Assembly (NCBI GenBank): GCA_038831005.1
Contig: JAWBKZ010000002.1
Span: forward strand, 186,001-250,000
Source: Ignisphaera sp.
GTDB taxonomy: Archaea > Thermoproteota > Thermoprotei_A > Sulfolobales > Ignisphaeraceae
Reading direction: 5' to 3'
DNA length: 64,000 bases
The first letter of the stretch is position 1. Each line of letters begins with the position of its first letter. Shown in pieces: positions 1,178-44,486 of this stretch. The notes under the pieces were generated by a model that was given only the letters and a program-made list of their open reading frames with translations, was not told the origin of the DNA and did no database searches. Both the position numbers and the translations under genes were made by a program.

Positions 1178-4100
1178 CTAGTTGATGTATTGTGGCATGG
1201 TTTGTGCTACTAGATGTATTGTGTATAAAAGTTTTGATTTAGCTTCAAGATATCTTTTGATATATGATGCAATATTTTGAGGAATATTCTTTATATTTTC
1301 ACCTCTTTCTTTAATGAAATCCATATAGATCTTCTGAAGCTTAGCTACATCTATACTCTCTAGGTCTATCTCCATACCCTCGATCACCAGCTCTGAAGCT
1401 ACTGTAGTAAGTGATACGGGATTGATCCCTATCTTCAGTAATTCTTCTCTTAAGCTATATCCATAATCATTAATAGTTCTAGCCAATCTCTTTAGACCTA
1501 TAGCTTCAAGTTCTTTAACTGCTACATCTTTATCATAGACTATTAGCTTCATATCGTTATACATAACTAGATCCTCAACTTCTACCTCAAAATCTCTAAG
1601 AGATTTGGGAGGTGGTGTGAAAGGATACATTACGTAGAGATCTACAACAGTTTTAGTGGATTCTCCATCATATACACTAAGACCTACTATAGCTCTACGT
1701 ATAGCTTCATCTTCATCGATTATCTGACCAATACCGTCGAGAGTAACGATCTTGAGAGCTCTACTAGGCTTAGGTATGATTATCTTTTTGTTCCTGAATA
1801 TAGCTGCAACTCTTTCCCTTAGCAGTATATAGTCTATAATCCTGATAGCTATATCCCTAACGGTATTAAGATCTATACCTATGGATAGAAGATCAGCATA
1901 AGCTATATCATCTAACTGTAACAACAGGATCAGATCTATATCCTCTGGACTATATGTCTCTATATCTTTTCGAATTCTGCTCCAATCTAGGCTATCTATA
2001 AGTCCTGCAGCTTCAGGTTCATGTATTTCAAAGAACTTCTTTTCTCCTATTTTGCCAACGCTATACATAATGGTTTCGAGAGGTATTCCGTATAATTTCC
2101 TAAGCAGAACCATTAGATAGGCGAGACCTAGTCTAAGTAGCGTTGAATCTTCTCTTTCATCAACCTCAATGAGAAATCCATAGGTATAGTCTTGGTATAG
2201 ACCAACTGTTTCAACAGGAACATATACAGTTTTTCTATCGTATGAAACGACATGTTTATCACCGATTCTCGATATCCTCGGTTTACTTGAAATGAGGTAC
2301 CATATCACTCTGTTTGGAACCTTTCTGTATTCGCCGAAACCTTGTTTAGGTGTATAGACAACAGCAAGAACATAGCTATACAACTTACCTCTCGCTATAT
2401 CTTTAAGTATGTTTGTTTCTTCTCTCCACAAAGATTTTATGTATCTATACTCCTCTAGTGCTTCAGCAATAGCATCATCGCTATAGAAACTGAATCTACT
2501 GAGTTTAGTCTCTACAACGGCTCTAGCAATTCTATGGCTTTTACCACTCTCGACATGCTTAACTATAGCGTCTTGCGAAATATCTATACAGCCTTTCTGA
2601 AAACGTTCAACAAGATCGCAATGACCTATAGGCTCGAGAGGTATAAGTCTTCCATCTTCCTCCATATATCTCTTGATACCATACGGAGGACCAAATTCAT
2701 AGAAGTTGAGTCTTTCCCATATCCATTTAGCTTTATCCACATCTATAGATCCGTTACCTTTAACCACTTTTACAGCTTTTAGGACTCTGTGTTCTTCTTC
2801 AGTAATTTTTTCTCTATACCATGGAGAGAGAACCTTTGCTAAACCTGTAAACAAATGTATATACTTATTATTGGGATTTATTATAGTTTTTTCTAGTTGT
2901 AATTGGAGCCATCGTTCAAATGCATTCATACCTTTTGAAAGTAGCTCCCAATCCCAACGCGTCGATGGTATGATTAACGATTCCGAGAAGGGTATACCTT
3001 TTCTTCTACCTTTCCTGCCCTCTCTTTGCAGAAATTCTCTAACACTTTCAGGTAACCCGATATGTACTATTCTAACAACAGTACCTATATCTATTCCTTG
3101 GCTTAATGTTCTAGGACTCACAATAATCTTTATTTCATCTCTTCTAGCTTTCTCTTCAATGATTTCTCGATCCTTTTTAGGAATTAAGTGATGATGAGCT
3201 GCTACAACATCTCCTATAGATTCTCTCAAATTTCTGGTAATTTCATCAGCACGTGCAATACTTTTAGTAAAGACAAGCGTAACACCATCATCATTTACAT
3301 AATTTGATAGCACTTCTTTTAGATCTATAGATATTGAAGGTGTTTCATAACCTAATGCTTCAAGATACTGAAGAACTCTATATACATTCTTTCTAAATAT
3401 CTCGAAATCATTGAGAGCCTCAATGATATCTTTATCTACATCACTTCTCTTTACAACATCGCTGCTATATCTTTTGATACTATTCCAAATATTTTCAAGA
3501 TTTTTTCCCAAGATTATGTAGAGTCTATTCTCGACTCTAAATGGCTTGCCATCAACTATAACACATTTTCTGTTTGTTACATCTTCTAGATATCTACATA
3601 TATCTTCAGGATTTGCTAGAGTTGCTGTCAGGATTACTATTTGTGGTTTTTCATCGCTATACTTCGTTAAGATCTTTATCATAGCTAGTATTAATGCTAT
3701 ACTTCTTGGGCTATAGAAATCAAATTCATCGATAACAAATAGATTTAGTTTCCTTAAATCGAGTACACATTCTGTAGGGGTTATGAGGAGTTTCTTAATT
3801 TCGTGGAAAAGAAATGCAGGATTCGTTATTACAAGGTTTGCAGATGCAAGTGTTTTCCTAAGCCCATACTTACCTATTTTCTGTATAATTTCGTCTCTTT
3901 GTAGAGCATCTATTTTCGTAACAGATATACCTGCTGAAGAAGAGTATAGTGATATTCTTTTGATCTGATCGTTCGCTAGTGCTAGTGTTGGATATACAGC
4001 TATAGCCTTAAACGTTCCGTTCTTTGCTTTTTCGTGGAAATAGAGGTACCAGCTTTCAGTCTTACCTGAACCAGTACCAGCCTTAAGGATAACATTGTAT

Positions 4101-39802: not shown

Positions 39803-40204
39803 CTACTTATGGCCTATAGTATAGCCTATGGGTATGTATCTAGTTCCACAGCCTACCGATAAGAGGTTTCTATGAAGATCCTTAATTCTTTCAGAGTTTC
39901 CTGAAACTATAAACATGCATATACAAGTGTTCTCTAGATGGTTATGTGTATAACTTAGAACAACATCTTTAAAGCTCTCGATTGCTCTATCTATTTTTTC
40001 TCCTTCATCTGTTTCTACAATAATCACGCCTCTACAGAAGTGGTTTTCATGAGCATGGCTATAGCTGTACTCATTAACAAAGTTTGTTAATGCTTTTTCA
40101 ACAAGCTTGGATCTATCTATACCAAGTATTTTAGCAAGTCTATCTATTTCACAAGCTAGAGAACTATCTATAGATATTCCGAAGCGCTTCTTTCTAGTCA
40201 TCAT
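39803..40204 (-). CDS. NikR-like metal-responsive regulator
   Basis: A 133-aa ribbon-helix-helix protein: RFGISIDSSLACEIDRLAKILGIDRSKLVEKAL is cut here to its core RSKLVEKAL. The C-terminal ACT-like domain has HAHENHFCRG and YTHNHLENTCICMF, matching the His/Cys metal site region of NikR, though the exact ligand set differs. ATG 40204 overlaps the permease stop. Being the last gene of the SBP-permease-regulator operon, it probably controls that metal importer through the TGTGCACA sites upstream of znuA-like/znuC-like genes. Nickel, zinc or another metal cannot be decided. Confidence 0.85.
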   Translation of the reverse strand: MMTRKKRFGISIDSSLACEIDRLAKILGIDRSKLVEKALTNFVNEYSYSHAHENHFCRGVIIVETDEGEKIDRAIESFKDVVLSYTHNHLENTCICMFIVSGNSERIKDLHRNLLSVGCGTRYIPIGYTIGHK

Positions 40205-41073
40205 TTCTTCACTCTCTTTAAAGCTATCGAAAGCATATACATCGTTAGTGCAGTAAATCCTATACCACTTGCTGGAGCTATATTTAGCCAATAAGAGAGA
40301 ACGAGTCCCAGAAGTCCTGAAACAATAGACATGTATATGCTTAGGGCCAAGACCCTATTACTTCCTTCAACACTATTGATTGCTGTAAGAGCTGGAAGAA
40401 GGAGAAGAACATGTTCAACTATATAGCCTATGATCCTCATGAGGGCTATACAAGCTACACCTAATACAGTAAAGAAGAGAAATTCATAGATGTGAGTGTT
40501 TTTAACGCTAAGCATAACGGTATCCCTATCTATACCGATATAGATTGTAACTCTATATATAGCTAGCGCGGTAATGAGCAAAACTAGGCCTATTGCTGCA
40601 AGAATCTGTATGTCTCTCCATGTCGTGAGTAGAGGATCTCCGAGAATTATGCTCCATAAACTGTACTCAACTCTGTATCTAGTTAAAACAGCAAACATGG
40701 ATACAACACTACTTGAAGCAGTAGCAGAAACAACAATAGAGGTAGCCATATCTGGATCAAAACCTTTGTGTATAGCATAGCCAACAACATATACTATAGC
40801 GAGACCTACCATTATTGCCCATAGAATCTCGGAATTAAGTGGTGTTTCTCTAGAAAGAGCTACAGAGATAGTTACTGCAAAAAGAGCTATATGGCTTACT
40901 TCAGATGCCAGGAAATATAGTCTTCGAGCAGCTATCAATGGACTTACGGATCCATATATAGTTGCTGAAAGAATTATAGCTAAGATCCATTCAACTCTAG
41001 GTATATATAAAAAAGAGACAACTGTAAGAACCATGAAAAAGCCGATGAGTATACATGTTGCTCGAGCATTCAA
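40201..41073 (-). CDS. ABC metal transporter permease (ZnuB/MntB family)
   Basis: A 290-aa membrane protein with eight to nine helices and the family's pattern of LYFLASEVSHIALFAVTIS early and AINSVEGSNRVLALSIYMS after the middle, where ZnuB/TroC proteins contact the ATPase. The start is TTG overlapping the binding-protein stop (TTGA), which is tight coupling; the next ATG is 13 codons in. Confidence 0.88.
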   Translation of the reverse strand: MNARATCILIGFFMVLTVVSFLYIPRVEWILAIILSATIYGSVSPLIAARRLYFLASEVSHIALFAVTISVALSRETPLNSEILWAIMVGLAIVYVVGYAIHKGFDPDMATSIVVSATASSSVVSMFAVLTRYRVEYSLWSIILGDPLLTTWRDIQILAAIGLVLLITALAIYRVTIYIGIDRDTVMLSVKNTHIYEFLFFTVLGVACIALMRIIGYIVEHVLLLLPALTAINSVEGSNRVLALSIYMSIVSGLLGLVLSYWLNIAPASGIGFTALTMYMLSIALKRVKK

Positions 41074-42056
41074 TGCTTTTTCGCCACAAATAGCACTATA
41101 AACACAATTAGAGCCAAACCCACGGCTACGTAAACTAAGTAGTATCCCTCTCTCCAGACATCTGACTTATCTAGAGGTACTGGCGACATCATATCTTGTG
41201 AAATCATCTCTAAAACAGATTCGTGGTAGCCTAGTATGGAGTTATAGCTAAGAGGATTAGGTAGCTCAACAAATGGTACTCTATATCTATACGCAATATC
41301 ATTTAATGATGCTCTAGCTATCGACTCTTTTAGAACAACCATAATGGTCTTGTTACCATATGTCTTAACCACATCTTCAGCTTTAGCTATATCTTTTGGT
41401 GTTATCGGTACTTCATGTTCTATTTGAACAATATGCTTAACCTCAGCTCCTAGAGAGTTAACAAGATATTGAAGTATAGGTGAATCTATTACAGCAACTC
41501 GATCCTTTAATAACTTCTTAACACCGGCAACTCTAGCTCTACTCACAATCTCTTCAAATTTAGATCTATAGACATCACTACAATCGTGTCTGATAAAGGT
41601 CAGTGTATTGGTTACATTCTCTATGAACGTTAGATAGTTGTTTATGTCCATAAGCAGACCATGGTAATTGATTGTACCTGATAATGGATGTTCTAAAAAC
41701 TTTATACCGGGTATATTAGGTATCTCTATGAGTTTGGCTTTCAGTACACCATCACCGATAAGCTTCTTGATGTTTGTTTCAAAAGGTGTATGTGCTGTAG
41801 ATATAATCAGGTCTGCTTTACTGAGAATTTCGAAATCTTGTGGCGTAATTTGGTATTCATGCGGATCAACACCTAGGGGTACGAGACTATAAACGGTATC
41901 ACCATCGCATAGAATGTTTTCTACATCTTTAAGCATGAAGGGGAAAGTGACAACAACATGTACACCGTCTTTGGTACCTACTGCTCCAGTAACCGTTATA
42001 GATGTTGCTAGAATTATGTGGACCAACAATATGGTTGCAATCTTCTGTAGCATCAT
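41070..42056 (-). CDS. Metal ABC transporter substrate-binding protein (ZnuA-like)
   Basis: A 328-aa extracellular protein with a signal peptide (residues 1-22) and a C-terminal membrane helix before a short Lys/His tail. The metal site motifs of cluster-9 binding proteins are visible: the DPHEYQITP segment with the first His, HGLLMDIN, and the ITPKDIAKAED linker. The usual His-rich loop of ZnuA is absent. I use ATG 42056 because AGGTG precedes it and the further GTG at 42092 lies inside an operator. Divergent from the ATPase gene. Confidence 0.9.
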   Translation of the reverse strand: MMLQKIATILLVHIILATSITVTGAVGTKDGVHVVVTFPFMLKDVENILCDGDTVYSLVPLGVDPHEYQITPQDFEILSKADLIISTAHTPFETNIKKLIGDGVLKAKLIEIPNIPGIKFLEHPLSGTINYHGLLMDINNYLTFIENVTNTLTFIRHDCSDVYRSKFEEIVSRARVAGVKKLLKDRVAVIDSPILQYLVNSLGAEVKHIVQIEHEVPITPKDIAKAEDVVKTYGNKTIMVVLKESIARASLNDIAYRYRVPFVELPNPLSYNSILGYHESVLEMISQDMMSPVPLDKSDVWREGYYLVYVAVGLALIVFIVLFVAKKH

Positions 42057-42082: not shown

Positions 42083-42096
42083 TTGTGTGCACACAA
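42083..42096. promoter_or_regulatory. Operator 1: 14-bp palindrome for the metal regulator
   Basis: TTGTGTGCACACAA is a perfect palindrome with core TGTGCACA. It lies between a plausible TATA region and the start of the znuA-like gene, so a bound regulator would block that promoter. The same core occurs again 33 bp away. Confidence 0.7.
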
Positions 42097-42099
42097 AAG

Positions 42100-42117
42100 T
42101 TTTTAAGCTTTATTTAT
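42100..42117. promoter_or_regulatory. Shared TATA region of the divergent metal-transport promoters
   Basis: An AT-rich TTTTTAAG/CTTTATTTA stretch sits between the two operator palindromes. Read rightward it is about 25 nt before the ATPase ATG (leaderless spacing); read leftward it can serve the binding-protein operon. Confidence 0.5.
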
Positions 42118-42118
42118 C

Positions 42119-42126
42119 TGTGCACA
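42119..42126. promoter_or_regulatory. Operator 2: TGTGCACA palindrome
   Basis: A second copy of the core of operator 1, centre-to-centre 33 bp (about three helical turns), placed directly before the ATPase start codon. It would cover the transcription start of that gene. Confidence 0.65.
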
Positions 42127-42127
42127 T

Positions 42128-42910
42128 ATGGTAGTAAGTATGGTTTTATTGAGAACAGAAGGACTTGCTATAGGTTACGAAGGACCTCTTGTAGAGAATA
42201 TAGACTTAGAGATAGTCTCGCCATCGTTTATACAGATCATGGGTCCAAATGGCTCCGGTAAAACAACATTCTTAAGGACTTTAATAGGTGTTTTAAAGCC
42301 GATAAAAGGTAGGATTTATATCGATGGAGAGGATGTGACAGGAAATACAGCTAAAACAGGTAGATACATTAGCTATGTACCTCAGATAGCCACTTACGTA
42401 CTAGGTGAAGTTTTTCCTATAACTGTATGGGAGTTCATAGAATTCGAAGCCACTGCTTACGCTAAAACACTAAACATAGCTAGAGATAGTATAAGGAAAA
42501 GGGTTAAAGAGATTCTCGAGCTTATAGGTATACCTAGAGAACTATGGTATAAAGGTGTACATAGGCTTTCCGGTGGTCAGAGACAGAGGCTTTTAATAGC
42601 TAGAGCTTTAGTAAAGGATGTACCTATAGTTGTTATGGATGAACCTCTATCAGCTATAGATGTAGAAGGTAAAACAGTTGTAGCAGATCTAATCAGGGTT
42701 CTCAGAGATAGAGAGAAGATTGTTATAACAACGTGTCACGATCCATCTATGCTTATAGAATACACAGATTATGTAATGATTCTGTCGAAAGGTAGCTATA
42801 TCTATGGAAAACCAGAAGAAGTATTAAAGCCTTCTGTTCTAGAGAAAGTCTATCGCGAATGCTTTACAGAGTACGAGAAGCATATACATCTCTACGACTA
42901 TCATCTATGA
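42128..42910 (+). CDS. ABC metal transporter ATPase (ZnuC-like)
   Basis: A 260-aa ATPase: Walker A GPNGSGKTT, Q-loop YVPQIA, signature LSGGQRQRLLIARAL, Walker B VVMDEPLSAID and switch His in TTCHDPSML. It is the missing third component of the importer whose binding protein and permease are encoded divergently. The ATG at 42128 fits a leaderless start; a second ATG at 42140 is possible. Confidence 0.93.
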   Translation: MVVSMVLLRTEGLAIGYEGPLVENIDLEIVSPSFIQIMGPNGSGKTTFLRTLIGVLKPIKGRIYIDGEDVTGNTAKTGRYISYVPQIATYVLGEVFPITVWEFIEFEATAYAKTLNIARDSIRKRVKEILELIGIPRELWYKGVHRLSGGQRQRLLIARALVKDVPIVVMDEPLSAIDVEGKTVVADLIRVLRDREKIVITTCHDPSMLIEYTDYVMILSKGSYIYGKPEEVLKPSVLEKVYRECFTEYEKHIHLYDYHL

Positions 42911-42960
42911 AGTTAGAACACGCTACACATAGTTGCCCTTTAAATGATTAACCATAGAAT

Positions 42961-43736: not shown

Positions 43737-43766
43737 CATAGTACAGGATTAATGCTGAAGTAGTTG

Positions 43767-44486
43767 GTGTACTACGGTTTGAGAGTTAAGGTAAAAATCT
43801 TTTCACTATATAGAGATATTGTAGGTCTTCCCGAAGTAGAAATAGATGTTGAGAAGTGTAGCGCTAAAGAAGTTCTATTGAAACTAACAGGAATCTATCC
43901 AAAACTTAGAGAAACCTTTAGGAATGTATCGCCAATAGTTTTCATAAACGGTGAACCAGCTGATCTAGAGACAGATAAAGGTCTAGAGATATGTACTGAA
44001 GTAGCTATTGCTCCTCCAGCTTCTGGCGGTAGTAGCAATATTAAGGTTGGTTTCTTTTCTAGTGATATAGAAGTTTCACTAGATAGCATTATAATGGATA
44101 GTATTAGAAAAGAGGTTGGCGCTATAGCTATTTTCATTGGTGTAGTTAAAGGTGAAATCAATGGTAAAGAAGTTGTGGAGCTAATATATGAAGCTTACGA
44201 ACCCTACGCTACGAAGATACTGGAGAGGATAGCTCAAGAAGAATTGAAGAGACATGACCTTTATTCTGTACAGATTCTTCATAGACTCGGTAATGCTAAA
44301 CCTGGTCAAAAGACACTTGTAATAGCTGTTTCAGCTAGAAGTAGAAAAGAGGCTATAGAGGCTCTTTCAACAATCTTAGAGAGAGTGAAAAGCGAGGTGC
44401 CTGTTTACAAACTTGAGAAAAGAGTTGATGGTGAATACTGGGTAGTGGGGGACGGCAATAGGTATAAGAGATCTACAAATGTATAG
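43767..44486 (+). CDS. MoaD-MoaE fusion (molybdopterin synthase)
   Basis: About 239 aa. Residues 1-88 are a MoaD ubiquitin-like domain ending PPASGG; from about 92 a MoaE domain follows with AIAIFIGVVKG, YEAYEPYA, HRLGNAKPGQ and the C-terminal KRVDGEYWV carrying the catalytic Lys. MoaD must expose its diGly end as a thiocarboxylate, yet here GG is internal, followed by SSN. Either the chain is cleaved after GG, or another MoaD serves and this domain is structural. TTG 43764 and GTG 43767 are adjacent start candidates. Ends overlap the convergent regulator gene by 14 bp. Confidence 0.92.
   Translation: MYYGLRVKVKIFSLYRDIVGLPEVEIDVEKCSAKEVLLKLTGIYPKLRETFRNVSPIVFINGEPADLETDKGLEICTEVAIAPPASGGSSNIKVGFFSSDIEVSLDSIIMDSIRKEVGAIAIFIGVVKGEINGKEVVELIYEAYEPYATKILERIAQEELKRHDLYSVQILHRLGNAKPGQKTLVIAVSARSRKEAIEALSTILERVKSEVPVYKLEKRVDGEYWVVGDGNRYKRSTNV

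Follow-up and report, generated by a model that had tools for sequence, protein, structure and literature searches.

The window analyzed here is a 64-kb stretch of an Ignisphaera genome in which an AT-rich cAAAAGTTTTTAAGCTTTATTTATc region separates a znuA-like gene from a divergent ABC-ATPase gene (Table 1). The left operon continues from the znuA-like gene, whose start we set at MMLQK rather than at the GTG at 42092, through a permease gene to a gene for a NikR-like regulator, the ATG start of which overlaps the permease stop (ATGA). With ZnuA, the ABC-3 permease and the ATPase together, the locus qualifies as a ZnuABC-type importer; the three genes were found together in most of the loci that we fetched, where the regulator gene also mostly follows the permease gene. 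The substrate-binding protein matched manganese families (45.5 bits) and zinc families (30.6 bits) of NCBIfam, all far under cut-off, and is thus too divergent for its metal to be named. Elsewhere in the window, a 240-amino-acid open reading frame (43764-44486) contains a MoaE domain at residues 105 to 211; its N-terminal part lies outside the MoaE match, and the protein may be a MoaD-MoaE fusion.

Table 1. Genes and sequence elements of the importer locus (positions within the 64-kb window)
Feature	Position	Strand	Remarks
NikR-like regulator gene	39803..40204	-	Third gene of left operon; Pfam RHH_3 33.1 bits, NikR_C 26.4 bits
ABC-3 family permease gene	40201..41073	-	Pfam ABC-3 85.7 bits
znuA-like metal-binding protein gene	41070..42056	-	First gene of left operon; Pfam ZnuA 78.5 bits
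Left operator TGTGCACA	42086..42093	no strand	znuA side; core of 14-bp palindrome TTGTGTGCACACAA (42083-42096)
AT-rich spacer, 25 bp	42094..42118	no strand	Between the two operators
Candidate TATA element TTTTTAAG	42100..42107		Promoter function inferred
Candidate TATA element CTTTATTTA	42108..42116		Promoter function inferred
Right operator TGTGCACA	42119..42126	no strand	1 nt before ATPase start codon
ABC transporter ATPase gene	42128..42910	+	Divergent; Pfam ABC_tran 94.5 bits

Two copies of the palindrome TGTGCACA occupy the intergenic region, with a start-to-start distance of 33 bp. A sequence-only reading had described TTGTGTGCACACAA and TGTGCACA at these coordinates, 33 bp or about three helical turns apart, flanking a shared AT-rich TATA region, with each site between the TATA element and the start of one transcript and with a NikR-like ribbon-helix-helix (RHH) protein encoded third in the left operon. 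The sequences, coordinates, spacing, flanking arrangement and gene order all held; the TATA elements remain candidates only, and the placement of each site relative to TATA and transcript start is inferred from sequence. The 14-bp extent of the left palindrome had to be corrected, as alignment of orthologues showed that the conserved unit is the 8-mer TGTGCACA and not the left site's 14-bp extension. TGTGCACA occurs exactly twice in the window (0.54 expected), which is weak evidence by itself because 11 of 100 shuffled windows also contained at least two copies. Single sites were likewise not enriched in the 1.70-Mb genome (10 versus 8 for the reversed control); the other eight comprise seven inside open reading frames of ≥100 amino acids and one intergenic site. 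The paired pattern TRTGCAYA-N24..26-TRTGCAYA, by comparison, occurs once in the genome, at the znuA/ATPase locus of the window. The earlier reading had proposed looking for pairs at other metal genes, and this whole-genome pattern scan found no other pair anywhere, so that, judged by pairs, the regulon comprises the znu locus alone. The pair, rather than the single site or its count, is the meaningful unit.

Homologues of the regulator were present in 168 of the 229 genomes of the class, and loci were fetched from the 60 best-matching genomes. A readable, oriented znuA/ATPase intergenic region was obtained from 46 of these 60 loci; of the 14 left out, 12 had no readable znuA or ATPase match and 2 had both matches on the same strand. 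One left-out locus (L078) has the pair upstream of znuA, another (L048) has a degenerate pair (TGTGCACA / TGTGTACG, 32 bp), and no pair was found in the fetched DNA of the remaining 12. The 46 regions lean toward close relatives of the regulator because they derive from the best-matching genomes; the pattern scans reported below (229 class, 398 phylum and 84,980 genomes) are free of this bias. A pair at 32 to 34 bp with ≤1 mismatch per site was present in 38/46 regions (32 bp, n = 16; 33 bp, n = 20; 34 bp, n = 2), compared with a mean of 0.015 regions (maximum 1) after dinucleotide shuffling. The other eight regions also contain a pair, at 32 to 33 bp, with TGCA kept and at least one site with two mismatches. 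Under a relaxed rule (TGCA core, ≤2 mismatches), 42/46 regions scored, versus 0.09 in shuffles. Absence of the palindromes from orthologous promoters would have refuted the sequence-only reading, and this was not observed.

At these loci the operators have scarcely changed, and spacer and flanks have diverged. Mean pairwise identity among the 33-bp loci (n = 20) was 0.952 for the operators, 0.42 for the spacer and 0.31 for the flanks; for the 32-bp loci (n = 15), the corresponding values were 0.927, 0.41 and 0.31. Each column of the left operator was 90 to 100% identical across the 20 loci at 33 bp, and the right operator was kept in orthologues at 32 to 34 bp from the left site. Spacers usually contain a TTTATAAG-like sequence. 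The right site usually lies 3 to 17 nt upstream of the ATPase start at znu loci; if the transcripts are leaderless or have short leaders, we infer that it would be situated between TATA and the start site. Loci with more than two sites showed extra spacings of 40 to 44 bp (about four turns), among others. Separately, L048 carries a TGTGCACA / TGTGCACG pair at 3822-3870, 5 kb from the znu promoter, with a spacing of 41 bp (about four turns); it is possibly an extra target.

To a wider extent, TRTGCAYA-N24..26-TRTGCAYA was detected in 60/229 class genomes (3/229 with the reversed control), and exact pairs with N23..26 in 20/398 genomes of the phylum (0 with the reversed control). Five of the exact pairs fall outside the class, in two additional families, and all five lie between znuA and the ATPase gene. 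That a short palindrome recurred by chance would be compatible with the unremarkable window count and the lack of enrichment of single sites, but is virtually ruled out by these two scans and by the excess of orthologous pairs over shuffles. When 84,980 named genomes were searched for a TATAA flanked by two sites, 32 stretches were returned. Fifteen hold znu genes, every one at 32 to 34 bp, and belong to Pyrodictiaceae, Desulfurococcaceae, Ignisphaera, Archaeoglobales (five records) and other Thermoproteota; the complete four-gene cassette is present in two Archaeoglobaceae (L164 and L170). Spacings in ten bacterial stretches were scattered from 22 to 35 bp, none at 32 to 34, and two further stretches came from one archaeon, at 26 bp. 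In five Woesearchaeota loci (L156, L158, L161, L166 and L177), a conserved TGTGCACA pair with 32-bp spacing encloses TATATAAA..TTTCGGTT, and the gene downstream of it is Fic-like (identified by eye in L161). A tblastn search returned no znu gene there, nor was a NikR-like gene found, and we treated these pairs as unrelated to the znu switch. We conclude that the paired site is likely a widely conserved metal-import switch of heat-loving archaea, in the absence of binding or expression data. No archaeal report of a TGTGCACA-pair operator was found in a search of titles and abstract openings, from which subscription papers were mostly excluded.

The pair tends to co-occur with the regulator. Among the 229 class genomes, 50 have both, 59 the regulator only, 10 the pair only and 110 neither (regulator at E up to 1e-15; Fisher P = 6e-11, ignoring genome relatedness). 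As evidence against the model given below, no pair of the TRTGCAYA pattern is present in 59 of the 109 genomes in which the regulator is clear; within the subset inspected, many have weaker sites. In three genomes (G143, G151 and G152), the regulator gene has no adjoining znu genes, and in 3/3 the pair is found at the distant znuA/ATPase promoter. Without binding data, these unlinked cases, together with those of genera g9 and g11 described below, are stronger evidence than linkage or co-occurrence that the regulator is the binder. Autoregulation of the importer by the NikR-like protein, as proposed in the earlier reading, is supported by the linkage, the co-occurrence and the unlinked cases, with binding itself inferred.

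Alternatively, a different regulator might bind TGTGCACA. In favor of this possibility, one DtxR-type protein scored above cut-off in the window's genome, and 10 of the 60 pair-bearing genomes have no clear regulator match. However, in five of these ten, all of genus g36, the regulator does match more weakly, and at the single locus inspected (L150) its gene adjoins the operon; two are incomplete genomes (G137, 55%; G172, 75%); the match in G040 is a hairpin; and the matches in G219 and G221 lie far from any znu or regulator gene. In addition, no Fur-family or Zur protein scored above cut-off in the window's genome, and genomes with a replacement transporter (described below) that lack a clear regulator also lack the pair. 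We therefore regard a different binder as unlikely and retain the NikR-like protein as the candidate.

The regulator has a NikR fold. Its only Pfam matches were to RHH_3 (cut-off 21.6), NikR_C (cut-off 22) and RHH_1, and a profile of 45 homologues matched Pyrococcus horikoshii NikR at 3e-16. NikR was also the best match to its structure model (pLDDT 90; Foldseek 1e-8), which aligned to NikR 2bj3 over nearly the whole length (Z 13.3; 126 residues; rmsd 2.4). The regulator nevertheless fell below the cut-offs of all NCBIfam NikR models (best, 31.9 bits versus 105). R6-F7-G8 of the recognition strand is invariant (67/67 homologues), as are H54 and C56, which form an extra HxC; H86/H88/C93, equivalent to NikR His87/His89/Cys95, are kept in 65/67. 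The position of NikR His76, registered by alignment to 2bj1, is instead occupied by E (46), D (9) or other residues (12). In the model, C56 (strand 55-64) and C93 (strand 92-102) are each near the start of a strand. From the strand order we infer that these are neighboring strands of a ferredoxin-like sheet, so that a tetrahedral site could be made up of C56, C93, H86/H88 and H54. Regulators at two loci (L148, 6974-7366; L150, 6948-7340) lack HxH..C and retain H54/C56 and the operator pair, suggesting that metal sensing may differ there. The window's genome also encodes a canonical NikR paralogue (L185, 4767-5177; G000:C3:89766-90176) with all four nickel ligands (LQHKY, HIH and C), adjoining two moeA-like genes (named by eye); no TRTGCAYA site was found in the 10 kb inspected around it. 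Thus, the description "NikR-like" held for the fold, while the metal site differs from that of standard NikR.

In genera g9 and g11, the regulator is present and ZnuA is absent (0/6 genomes tested). Here, at 7/7 promoters inspected, the pair precedes a gene of the P0002 family, whose multi-pass membrane proteins have an HGATPDEHTWP motif and are unrelated to ZnuABC; the spacing is 31 to 33 bp, and the sites are weaker in G025 and in g11. This family (member at L134, 5046-5966; homologues in 49/229 genomes) likely replaces ZnuABC. Its members gave weak matches to LysE (13/16) and NicO (7/16); naming the transporter by fold was tried and abandoned (model pLDDT 67; no PDB match with E < 0.001). 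Where the regulator is not clearly present, the pair was found at 0/13 P0002-family promoters inspected (12 in f9, which we take to be Sulfolobaceae, and one in f15). These 13 carry TTAGGGNNACCCTAA-like palindromes instead (L192, L193, L195-L200, L202 and L204-L207), and the strict TTAGGGNNACCCTAA motif occurs in 41/229 class genomes, mostly f9 and f15. Palindromes of this kind resemble DtxR-type operators. It is possible that the TTAGGGNNACCCTAA-like palindrome is such an operator and that regulators were swapped on one transporter.

The g9/g11 promoters also bear on whether the two sites act together. The sites could be two independent single-site operators, their spacing fixed merely by back-to-back promoters sharing a TATA region; at most znu loci, that of the window included, the sites are indeed each on the transcript side of the shared AT-rich region, with a TATA-like element between the two. 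In contrast, the g9/g11 promoters serve single genes and have a TATA-like box just upstream of both sites (7/7 inspected), and the spacing is kept. The spacing therefore belongs to the operator and not to the divergent promoter layout, and its survival when the TATA position changes points to a single protein assembly in contact with the two halves. Two znu loci (L086 and L095) also contain a second 32-bp pair in the same region, plus spacings of 42 to 44 bp, or about four turns. Independent sites are thus improbable.

Our preferred reading is that a NikR-derived repressor bridges both TGTGCACA sites of one bipartite operator, which we consider likely, with binding inferred. Our observations are the conserved pair and the distance between its sites, the association of the pair with linked and unlinked regulators, the NikR fold and the altered ligand set; what we infer is DNA binding, bridging by a tetramer, the way in which metal acts on binding, and which metal is sensed. 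In the proposed mechanism, the two palindromes would be halves of a single operator, each 8-bp palindrome bound by one two-fold-symmetric RHH dimer. A metal-loaded tetramer would bridge both halves on the same DNA face, three turns apart, and would cover the core promoter, silencing the importer operon together with the divergent ATPase gene. When metal is scarce, the protein would release the DNA and both transcripts would be made, including the regulator's own. Since the NikR operator halves are centered 22 bp apart, the 32- to 33-bp span would require two tetramers or a tetramer in a wider conformation, which weighs against the proposed mechanism.

Among the candidate metals, zinc ranks as the most likely, followed by manganese or iron, and none is proven. 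Zinc is placed first because of the His/Cys ligand set and the ZnuABC-type importer; nickel is disfavored because a canonical NikR coexists and His76 is lost; manganese and iron are not excluded because the f9 replacement transporter has a different palindrome, which resembles DtxR operators. The switch could be the one proposed and respond to manganese, iron, nickel or cobalt instead of zinc. This would agree with the NikR homology, with the binding protein's weak manganese and zinc matches and with the DtxR-resembling palindromes of Sulfolobaceae-like genomes, DtxR-type proteins usually sensing iron or manganese. Against it stands the nickel-type paralogue in the window's genome; moreover, two invariant cysteines (C56 and C93) with histidines make a zinc-like set, atypical for manganese. 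On balance, we lean slightly against a metal other than zinc. A bolder reading, which could as readily prove wrong as right, is that this is a NikR-derived archaeal zinc sensor, a non-nickel RHH metalloregulator with H54xC56 and HxH..C ligands and a three-turn bipartite operator. It would govern zinc uptake throughout Thermoproteota and Archaeoglobales and would stay with the function under control when an unrelated transporter takes the importer's place.

Beyond the sequence-only reading, the analysis shows how deeply the sites are conserved, that they form a bipartite unit, that cases in trans exist, that the metal site is altered and that transporters were swapped; all functional steps are predictions. 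The pair offers an exact and experimentally checkable DNA code for the control of metal importers in a large archaeal group. A conserved NikR paralogue that differs in metal site, operator and target would reveal how a sensor fold was retooled for another metal. The transporter was swapped with the operator kept, and the operator with the transporter kept, so that the evolution of regulation can be followed in a clean natural experiment.

The closest known system is NikR, which has been called unique among RHH proteins in its regulation by metal; its tetramer has two RHH domains, its operator has two parts, and its nickel site comprises His76, His87, His89 and Cys95 (PMC7055735). Like NikR of Escherichia coli, Helicobacter pylori and P. 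horikoshii, the regulator has RHH and ACT-like metal domains in the same order, and it shares with NikR the HxH..C part of the metal site and, by inference, a two-part operator and control of a metal importer. Unlike NikR, it mostly has Glu or Asp in place of His76 and has an invariant H54-x-C56, its inferred target is a ZnuABC-type importer, and its inferred operator is TGTGCACA twice at 32 to 33 bp instead of GTATGA-N16-TCATAC. The latter had no match at ≤3 mismatches in the intergenic region, the nearest (42905-42932) lying outside it. The inferred role, a metal-dependent repressor of a Znu-type importer, is that of Zur, although the fold is unrelated and the regulator's Pfam matches contain no Fur domain. 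The archaeal DtxR-family regulators FetR, MntR and ZntR are reported to control metal importers via palindromic operators (Leyn and Rodionov 2015); the regulator differs from them in protein family and operator. RHH repressors of the MetJ type bind an 8-bp palindrome per dimer, with more than one site per operator. The arrangement proposed here is similar, with one 8-bp palindrome per RHH dimer and several sites per operator; however, whereas MetJ boxes abut, the halves of this operator are three turns apart.
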